Source: Acidimicrobiales bacterium (GTDB lineage: Bacteria; Actinomycetota; Acidimicrobiia; Acidimicrobiales; MedAcidi-G1). Taken from it: a stretch of 49,334 bases of DNA. A program made the position numbers and the translations under genes. The stretch's first letter is position 1, and the number at the start of each line of letters is the position of its first letter. The DNA lies in contig JASMLT010000007.1 in assembly GCA_030748555.1 (NCBI GenBank), forward strand, positions 1 to 49,334, read 5' to 3'. Below are positions 36,363 through 39,766 of the stretch, piece by piece. The notes below the pieces were generated by a model. The model saw only the letters and a list, made by a program, of their open reading frames with translations, ran no database searches and was not told the DNA's origin.

Positions 36363-37432
36363 TTCACTATCTTCCTTACTGCAGTCAAAAAACTATTATT
36401 TTCACTTTTGCTACCAATCGTAACTCTCAAGCAGCCTTTCAAACCTTCCCAAGTAGAACAATCACGGACAAGAACTCCTTCTTCCAGTAATCCTTCCCAT
36501 AATTTATATGCATCAATGGTCTCAGGCTTAAATAACAGGAAATTAGCTTCCGAAGGCCACACCCTTACTGACATAGATGTCAACGCCTCAAAAACTCGTC
36601 TTCTCTCCTCTTTAAGCTCAGTGACTTTTCGAATTATTTCCTTGTCGTGTTTAAGAGCCAAAACACCTGCTTTTTGTTTTACAGAATCAAGGTGATATGG
36701 AAGAGAAACTGCTTGCATCATATTTATGCACCATTCCGGAGCAAGAAGGTAACCGAGACGAATTCCAGCTAAGGACCAAACTTTTGAAAAGGTACGGATA
36801 AAAGCAAGGTTGGATTCCTCGTTCACAGTCAGATCTGATGAACTCTCCGAAAATTCTTTATAAGCCTCATCAAGGACCAACAGTCCACCAGTCGAATTCA
36901 ACTCGGAAAGAATTGCATCGATTAATTCTGGACTTTCGATATTACCTGTCGGATTATTAGGCGAGCAAAGGAAAACTATTTCTGGTTTCTCTCGGTTGAT
37001 TATTTCAAGTGCAGTATCTTTGTCGATCTGGAATTCCTCATCACGGAATCCTTCGATAACCCGAGTTCCTGCGACCTTCGCTATTTTAGAATGCATCGCA
37101 TAAGTCGGTTCGAAAACCAGAGCTGACCTTTCGTTCCCTCCGTACGCTAAGCAAATTGACTGTATTATTTCGTTGGATCCGTTGGCAACAAAAACCTCAC
37201 TCTCCTTTAAAAGTTCTTTATCAGCAATAGACGCGCATAATTCGCTTGCTGAACGACTCGGATAACGATTCAAATCCAATTTTTTGATCTCAGATTCTAA
37301 CTCTTGAATGAACGAGTTGGGAAGAGGAAATGGAGCTTCATTCGTATTGAGTCTCACTGGAACATCAAGTTGTGGCGAATGGTATCCTTCAAGAACATCT
37401 AGATCTTCACGCGGTAGAGGAGTTTTATTCAT
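36359..37432 (-). CDS. hisC: histidinol-phosphate aminotransferase
   Basis: VRLNTNEAPFPLP, LCSPNNPTGN, TFSKVWSLAGIRLGYLL. Confidence 0.97.
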   Translation of the reverse strand: MNKTPLPREDLDVLEGYHSPQLDVPVRLNTNEAPFPLPNSFIQELESEIKKLDLNRYPSRSASELCASIADKELLKESEVFVANGSNEIIQSICLAYGGNERSALVFEPTYAMHSKIAKVAGTRVIEGFRDEEFQIDKDTALEIINREKPEIVFLCSPNNPTGNIESPELIDAILSELNSTGGLLVLDEAYKEFSESSSDLTVNEESNLAFIRTFSKVWSLAGIRLGYLLAPEWCINMMQAVSLPYHLDSVKQKAGVLALKHDKEIIRKVTELKEERRRVFEALTSMSVRVWPSEANFLLFKPETIDAYKLWEGLLEEGVLVRDCSTWEGLKGCLRVTIGSKSENNSFLTAVRKIVK

Positions 37433-38714
37433 TTTCTATTCCTCTCAAACGGATCGAATCTGCATGAGTTTCAAGCCCTTCAGCTTTTGCGAAATTAACG
37501 ATGTGCGGACCTATTCGCTTTAATGCAGTTTCAGAACTTGTAATAATATGAGTATCTCGCATGAAATCTGTTACGGTCAGGGCTCCCGAAAATCTTGCAC
37601 TCCCAGCGGTCGGTAATACATGACTTGGTCCTGCTAAATAATCTCCTAAAGAAGCCGGAGACCAGTTGCCACAAAAAATTGCTCCAGCATTTGATACTTT
37701 CTTAGCCATCTCTTCTGGATTATTTGTCATAATTTGCAAGTGCTCCGGAGCGACCGCATCCGCTATTTGCACTGCAGAATCAAAATCTTCAACAAGGGCA
37801 CAATAGCCTCCAGTCTCTAAAGTTGCTTTGATGTTTTCACCTCGTGAAGACTGTGCAACTAAAATCTCCAGTTCATTTATAACTTCAGAAGCAAAGTCTT
37901 CATCTGTTGTCACTAACCAAGATTTACCTCCCGGACCGTGTTCGGCTTGCACCGCAAGATCAACTGCAACAAATTTCGGAGGCGCAGTCGAATCGGCAAT
38001 AAGCATTATCTCTGATGGTCCAGCAAACGAAGCAGGGATTCCAACCTTCCCAGCGACTTCCTGTTTAGCTAAAGAAACATAGATGTTTCCAGGACCAACT
38101 ATCACATCGACGGGTTTTACAGATTCTGTTCCATAGGCAAGTGCAGCAATCGCTTGTGCCCCTCCGATTGGATGCACATCATCAACTTTTGCAACAAAAG
38201 CAGCAGCCAGAGTCTCAATTGAAATTCCTTTTTCAGTTGCAGGAGGGACAGTTACTACTATTCTTTTCACACCTGCTACTTTGGCAACCAATGCCGTCAT
38301 CAATAAAGTCGATGGATATGAGGCTAAGCCACCAGGAACGTAACATCCGGCACTAGCAACAGGCTTTTGAAGGGTTTCAACAGTTAATCCGTTTTCTTGG
38401 ATCACCCTATGTTCACGTAATTGAGTTCCCTGATACCGTACAATCGCTTCTGCTGAAGCATTAAGGGCATCTTTAAATTCTTCTGAAACTGAATCGTATG
38501 CTTTTTCTATCGTCTTTTCATCCACTCTTAAATCTCCGAGTGAAAAGCCATCGAAGTGTGCAGTCAGATCACGTAATGCTTCGTCACCTGAGTTCCGAAC
38601 TTGATTGATTATGTCTCTTACGGATTCGATAGGCATCTCACCAATCTCAGTTGAAGGAGGTATCAAAGCATTCCAGTCCCCACTTTTTTCCCTGAAATCG
38701 ATTCGTTTGAGCAT
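37425..38714 (-). CDS. hisD: histidinol dehydrogenase
   Basis: CYVPGGLASYPSTLLMTALVAKVAGVKRIVV, AGPSEIMLIAD, EHGPGGKSWLVT, GPSHVLPT. Confidence 0.98.
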   Translation of the reverse strand: MLKRIDFREKSGDWNALIPPSTEIGEMPIESVRDIINQVRNSGDEALRDLTAHFDGFSLGDLRVDEKTIEKAYDSVSEEFKDALNASAEAIVRYQGTQLREHRVIQENGLTVETLQKPVASAGCYVPGGLASYPSTLLMTALVAKVAGVKRIVVTVPPATEKGISIETLAAAFVAKVDDVHPIGGAQAIAALAYGTESVKPVDVIVGPGNIYVSLAKQEVAGKVGIPASFAGPSEIMLIADSTAPPKFVAVDLAVQAEHGPGGKSWLVTTDEDFASEVINELEILVAQSSRGENIKATLETGGYCALVEDFDSAVQIADAVAPEHLQIMTNNPEEMAKKVSNAGAIFCGNWSPASLGDYLAGPSHVLPTAGSARFSGALTVTDFMRDTHIITSSETALKRIGPHIVNFAKAEGLETHADSIRLRGIENE

Positions 38715-38797: not shown

Positions 38798-38992
38798 ATG
38801 CAGATAATTTCCAAAGCTGAACTTTCTTCACTGAAAACTCAACTTGAATCTCTAGTGACTGCTCTAATCGAAATAAATGACAAATCTTCTTCTGAAGATG
38901 AAATAGATGCAAGTAATAGAAATCTACTCGAGACTGAACGTCACCTTCGCGGCGCTCTGAGAGAATTAGAGCATCTGTCAAAAGGCATATAA
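38798..38992 (+). CDS. small hypothetical protein, predicted helical
   Basis: 64-aa reading MQIISKAELSSLKTQLESLVTALIEINDKSSSEDEIDASNRNLLETERHLRGALRELEHLSKGI; protein-like composition, but the opposite strand also has an ORF and no strong RBS is seen. Confidence 0.5.
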   Translation: MQIISKAELSSLKTQLESLVTALIEINDKSSSEDEIDASNRNLLETERHLRGALRELEHLSKGI

Positions 38993-39022
38993 AAAGCTCA
39001 GCGCCCCTTAAGGGCGCTGAGC
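38991..39022 (-). terminator. intrinsic terminator, minus strand
   Basis: GCTCAGCGCCC-loop-GGGCGCTGAGC (11-bp stem) followed on the minus strand by TTTTTATATG. Confidence 0.88.
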
Positions 39023-39085
39023 AAGCGAGGCGGGTGGCGGGAACCCGATTCTCGCCAAACCGGGTTGCGGTACCCGGATAATTAA
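38991..39085 (-). ncRNA. candidate structured small RNA or leader between nth and hisD
   Basis: Minus strand: hairpin CCGGGT-ACCGCA-ACCCGG (39060-39077), hairpin GGCGAGA-ATCGGGT-TCCCGCC (39036-39056), then terminator with U-tract; GC-rich island in AT-rich intergenic DNA with no minus-strand ORF noticed by eye (not translated). Confidence 0.5.
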
Positions 39086-39124
39086 AATTACACGCATCGA
39101 AAATTTTTTACCAAATTGAACTTT

Positions 39125-39766
39125 TCAAATTTGTGAACTTAAACAAAAATCACTTAATGAACACTCTTCGCATACAGGTTTCCGACTCGCGCACACTCTC
39201 CTTCCGTGCAAAATCAACCTCAAACTAAACAAACCTCTCTCATGTGCAGGAACCATGGGATTCAGTTCCATTTCCACTTTTACTGGATCCGTCTCTTCAG
39301 TGATCCCAATGCGTCTCGATAAACGTCCTACATGCGTATCTACTGGTAAACCAGGCAGGTCTAAGGCAACACTTCTAACAACATTCGCTGTTTTTCTACC
39401 TACTCCTGGTAATGCGGTTAGCTCTTCCATTGACGATGGAACCACACCACCATGCTTGTCAACTAAACCTTGAGCCATACCCAAAAGACTTTTGGTTTTA
39501 TTAATATAAAATCCAGTTGATCTAACAATCTCCTGAATACTCATTTCATTGGCTACAGCTAAACTCTCGGCATCAGGATATTTCTCAAAAAGTTCTGGAG
39601 TAACCATATTCACTCTTTTATCTGTGCATTGAGCTGACAAGATTGTAGCCGCGAGTAATTCGAACGGATTTTTATGATCTAATTCACATTTAGCATCAGG
39701 ATATTCAAAACCTAATCTTCTGTGAGATTCTTGTGCTCTACCCTTCGGTGATCTCGGTCTCCCCAT
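39125..39766 (-). CDS. nth: endonuclease III; start set at MGRPRSPKGRAQ
   Basis: NPFELLAATILSAQCTDKRVN, LPGVGRKTANVV, VDTHVGRLSRRIG, C-terminal Fe-S type cysteines CASRKPVCEECSLSDFC. Confidence 0.97.
   Translation of the reverse strand: MGRPRSPKGRAQESHRRLGFEYPDAKCELDHKNPFELLAATILSAQCTDKRVNMVTPELFEKYPDAESLAVANEMSIQEIVRSTGFYINKTKSLLGMAQGLVDKHGGVVPSSMEELTALPGVGRKTANVVRSVALDLPGLPVDTHVGRLSRRIGITEETDPVKVEMELNPMVPAHERGLFSLRLILHGRRVCASRKPVCEECSLSDFCLSSQI

Follow-up and report, generated by a model that had tools for sequence, protein, structure and literature searches.

The window analysed in this study is a 49,334-nt stretch of contig JASMLT010000007.1 from a marine actinobacterium of the Acidimicrobiales. 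On its minus strand, nth (endonuclease III; 39125–39766; TIGR01083, E = 3.1e-70) ends with a stop codon at 39125, and hisD (37425–38714; TIGR00069, E = 4.3e-141) follows as the next gene in that orientation. An element comprising two hairpins with C-rich loops and then an intrinsic terminator was located downstream of nth on this strand and outside that gene, occupying 39090–38991 together with its promoter box. Beyond the terminator, and before hisD is reached, the list of open reading frames contains a convergent 64-aa ORF on the plus strand (38798–38992), which had no Pfam or NCBIfam match. The stop codon of this ORF (38992) overlaps the final 2 nt of the U tract of the predicted small RNA (sRNA). 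A terminator on the ORF's own strand was looked for and none was found; its transcript may therefore cross the sRNA gene in the antisense direction.

Sequence and predicted fold of the element

The original prediction described a structured, GC-rich island of about 90 nt in AT-rich DNA, ending in a terminator with a TTTTT tract, and its sequence and coordinates were correct. The GC content was 0.54–0.59 over the element (90-nt windows) versus 0.30–0.37 immediately upstream. The minus-strand 98 nt folded at −51 kcal/mol versus a shuffle mean of −31.2 (z = −5.62), and none of the 200 shuffles was equally stable. Hairpin 1 (39060–39077, minus strand) is CCGGGU-ACCGCA-ACCCGG, with the loop ACCGCA; it is the CCGGGT/ACCCGG helix proposed at the outset, and is indicated by both fold and covariation. 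Hairpin 2 (39024–39056, minus strand) consists of an outer GGCGAG/CUCGCU stem, an inner CGGGU/ACCCG stem and the loop UCCCGCC (39042–39036). The minimum-energy fold of hairpin 2, GGCGAG AAT CGGGT-UCCCGCC-ACCCG C CUCGCU, is also the covarying one. This arrangement had been offered as an alternative (GCGAG-AAT-CGGGT-TCCCGCC-ACCCG-C-CTCGC), whereas the GGCGAGA/TCCCGCC pairing named ahead of it was unsupported. The intrinsic terminator (38991–39022, minus strand), with a 12-bp stem, a 3-nt loop and UUUUU, was recognised from the fold, covariation and a terminator scan of 1.5 kb, in which the single site was 39022–38996 with 12 bp and TTTTT.

The AT-rich box just upstream, suggested earlier as a possible −10, is TAATTT (TGTAATTT) at 39090–39085 of the minus strand. 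In 49 of 59 relatives, TANNNT lies 11–22 nt ahead of the hairpin-1 anchor; shuffles gave a mean of 9.2 and a maximum of 18, and the flanking 12-nt windows contained the motif in 1–5 loci. The motif is conserved across the order at this fixed distance, as a terminated sRNA gene with a promoter of its own would have it. TTGGTA at 39109–39114 (minus strand), separated from the −10 box by an 18-bp spacer, may be a weak −35; its match to the consensus is poor and the promoter scan did not detect it. Judged from the position of the −10 box, the transcript would begin at about 39083–39078. The covariance model R2, described below, matched 38989–39081 of the window (92.9 bits, E = 3e-13), and this match and the terminal U tract delimit a predicted sRNA of about 90 nt at 38991–39083 of the minus strand. 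At loci L077–L081, L090 and L096 (family f23 and others), TCGACA/TGGACA-like −35 and TGNACT-like −10 boxes were noted by eye, and possibly reflect a different sigma factor preference.

Distribution and conservation

A DNA search recovered the element in 29 of 48 genomes of the family, with an identity of 97–100% within the genus and 71–83% elsewhere. These relatives were used to build the covariance models R1 and then R2. Covariance-model searches identified the element in 57 of 395 genomes of the class (all but two of the same order), in 117 of 248 genomes and 85 of 155 genera of the order, and 13 times in a phylum sample of 397 genomes, always inside the same order; searches over 40 genomes were strictly filtered, and these distribution counts are thus lower bounds. 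A pattern scan of named genomes also matched Streptomyces, Sorangium, Gemmatimonadota and others. Six of these loci (L101, L103, L106, L107, L108 and L114) were rescored and failed the covariance model, and on this basis the pattern matches outside Acidimicrobiales were treated as chance. In each of four genomes (G806, G832, G849 and G853), R2 matched twice, on separate contigs, and the sRNA gene may have a second copy there.

Among members of the genus, identity was 99.3% over the twin hairpins and 98.1% over the whole element, compared with 58.5% for nth third codon positions and 86% for the spacer. Clean empty sites, at which nth abuts the convergent small ORF, were present in three relatives (L049, L052 and L055); R1 had no match there, and the element was either lost or never gained at these sites.

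Covariation and loop motif

Conservation and covariation in relatives, on which the original prediction had been staked, were both found. Among 70 aligned matches (64 distinct), 27 of the 30 pairs changed on both sides and 96.6% of cells were paired, in an alignment fitted to the model's own structure. When the partners were slid by 1–3 columns, paired cells fell to 38–46% (maximum 45.6%), and none of 500 shuffles paired as highly as the alignment. Double-sided changes were detected in all 7 model pairs of hairpin 1 (98.7% of cells paired), in 8 of the 11 pairs of hairpin 2 and in 12 of the 12 terminator pairs. The covariance-model alignment was used in place of RNAalifold on a MAFFT alignment, which gave a poor consensus because MAFFT misaligned the 6- and 7-nt loops.

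Because the alignment had been fitted to the model, 62 distinct sequences were also folded singly, without alignment. At least three hairpins formed in all 62 and two CCGC-type loops in 61, with a median z of −6.0. The stems vary across relatives while the loops hardly change: of the 62 sequences, 58 have the CCGCC core in hairpin 1 and 59 have it in hairpin 2. The loop forms are ACCGCA/CCCGCC in hairpin 1 and UCCCGCC/AUCCGCCG in hairpin 2, and the genus of the window is one of the exceptions for hairpin 1, carrying ACCGCA instead of the CCGCC core.

Putative mode of action

The conserved covarying structure, the −10 box and the terminator support well the view that the element is a candidate sRNA, as originally proposed. 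By analogy with known RNAs, we consider it probable that this is an sRNA gene with its own promoter, whose product acts in trans through loops that pair with G-rich mRNA sites. The RNA would be transcribed from a sigma-70-type promoter of its own in the gap separating nth from the convergent small ORF, and would most likely act in trans, as 6C/B11 does. Either loop would pair with G-rich mRNA segments of the GGCGG type, within or close to the 5′ end, and this pairing would lower the translation or stability of the target. Short C-rich motifs are also repeated in the hairpin loops of other trans-acting sRNAs: the NfeR1-type sRNAs of Alphaproteobacteria carry CCUCC anti-Shine-Dalgarno loop motifs. 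However, these belong to an unrelated phylum, and the CCGCC of the element is not complementary to the standard GGAGG Shine-Dalgarno sequence. B11 (6C) of Mycobacterium abscessus needs only one of its C-rich loops, no matter which, to repress an mRNA via a G tract in the 5′UTR, and repression was restored by compensatory mutations (PMC10470900). If the element follows this precedent, GGCGG-type sites are the expected partners of its CCGCC loops. The pattern GGCGGGA-N(2-16)-ATG had 173 matches in nine genomes of the genus versus 80 for the reversed pattern. The window's own genome contained 19 matches of GGCGGGA before a start codon, nearly all within open frames, which probably reflects codon usage rather than targeting, and this screen of the own genome gave no convincing target. 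The ACCGCA form of loop 1 in the genus makes it less likely that the two loops are equivalent in pairing.

Two hairpins that share a nearly invariant CCGCC core on covarying stems also have the look of a repeated protein site. RsmY, RsmZ and CsrB titrate CsrA through GGA loop motifs, and likewise present the same motif in repeated hairpins. The two loops could accordingly serve as decoys for an RNA-binding protein without pairing to mRNA, a possibility to which the screen for mRNA targets, having found none, lends some weight. However, the GGA motif of those RNAs is made for CsrA, whereas CCGCC has no known counterpart, and no protein that binds CCGCC loops specifically is known to us from actinobacteria. 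In 6C/B11, whose architecture is closest to that of the element, the mechanism is base-pairing (PMC10470900), and we regard a pure decoy function as rather unlikely.

Relationship to 6C RNA

The trans-acting, base-pairing sRNA preferred here shares several properties with 6C (RF01066; B11 or ncRv13660c in mycobacteria), which is an actinobacterial sRNA of about 70–100 nt encoded by its own gene, with two stem-loops whose C-rich loops presumably act on G-rich targets. The element follows the same plan of twin C-rich hairpins and then an intrinsic terminator. It probably works like 6C, by analogy. The original prediction stated that the element recalls 6C RNA: this is well supported for the kind of RNA and for its architecture, and is not supported for homology. 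In Rfam 15 scans of the window and 34 related loci, no family matched at the element. RF01066, against which a scan had been advised, has a gathering cut-off of 47 bits; it had no match in the window, none in the region at E up to 5 and none at the elements of the relatives. The loops differ as well: 6C has six or more consecutive C, and neither loop of the element contains such a run, its CCGCC core being interrupted by G. Unlike 6C, the element is located between mshD/nth and hisD.

The element is also not simply the 6C copy of its host genomes. G013, G012 and G018, all of which carry the element, also have 6C-like elements with C6–C8 loops elsewhere in the genome; the genome of the window, about 70% complete, yielded none. 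6C-like RNAs at L067, L179, L180, L181 and L182 scored 29–46 bits, all below the Rfam cut-off, and at least four of them show two C6–C8 loops. RF01066 thus seems to under-detect 6C-like RNAs in Acidimicrobiales.

A divergent but true homologue (paralogue) of 6C that lost its pure C6 runs would explain the shared plan of promoter, two C-loop hairpins and terminator, as well as the presence of 6C-like RNAs in the same family. This proposal concerns ancestry only and is compatible with the mode of action favoured above. The silence of RF01066, the lack of a match between R1 and the 6C-like locus L067, and the different locus and loop motif argue against it, and we consider it unlikely. The element is not 6C; it resembles 6C in architecture. 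This RNA was not described in any paper retrieved by the literature searches.

Independence from nth and hisD

Two further alternatives, an nth 3′UTR and a leader of the his operon, accompanied the original prediction, and both were contradicted by the relatives. In most genomes, including that of the window, the element sits 40–210 nt 3′ of a same-strand nth and it ends in a terminator, as would a structured 3′UTR or terminator of nth, or an sRNA processed from the nth mRNA. However, a co-directional nth preceded the element in 59 of 70 loci; the element was inverted relative to nth in two (L088 and L128, where it is also inverted relative to hisD) and nth was not found in nine. One of these nine, L071, lies near a contig end and is maybe truncated. 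In the other eight, a divergent GNAT (mshD-like) gene lies only 270–570 nt from the element, which leaves no room for nth between them. The −10 box travels with the element and is kept in both inversions, and a terminator needs no two hairpins conserved at 99%. The comparison thus largely refutes an origin as the nth 3′UTR, which we regard as very improbable. A homologue of the convergent ORF was found in 32 of 70 loci, 3′ of the element and on the strand opposite to it.

A role as a cis-acting his-operon leader or riboswitch is hardly credible. Although hisD is the next same-strand gene and comes after the element in 59 of 70 loci, the strong terminator and a gene on the opposite strand lie in between, the two are inverted relative to each other in L088 and L128, and several genomes have no hisD in the locus.

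The nth-less loci, the inversions and the empty sites together argue that the element is neither an nth 3′UTR nor a his leader. On this comparative sequence evidence, it is best regarded as a small-RNA gene in its own right, equipped with a predicted promoter and set apart from nth and hisD.

Implications for Acidimicrobiales

Acidimicrobiales abound in sea water, soil and sludge, and their small RNAs appear hardly studied in searchable papers. A covariance model is now given for an RNA that roughly half of the order's sampled genomes contain. Tentatively, this RNA may represent an order-wide sRNA family separate from 6C, acting as a global post-transcriptional regulator through a new, repeated CCGCC loop code that would either pair with a regulon of mRNAs bearing GGCGG or titrate an RNA-binding protein. 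The coexistence of the element and 6C-like RNAs in some genomes implies that twin C-loop sRNAs comprise more than one family, and whether their loops define separate regulons becomes a testable question.
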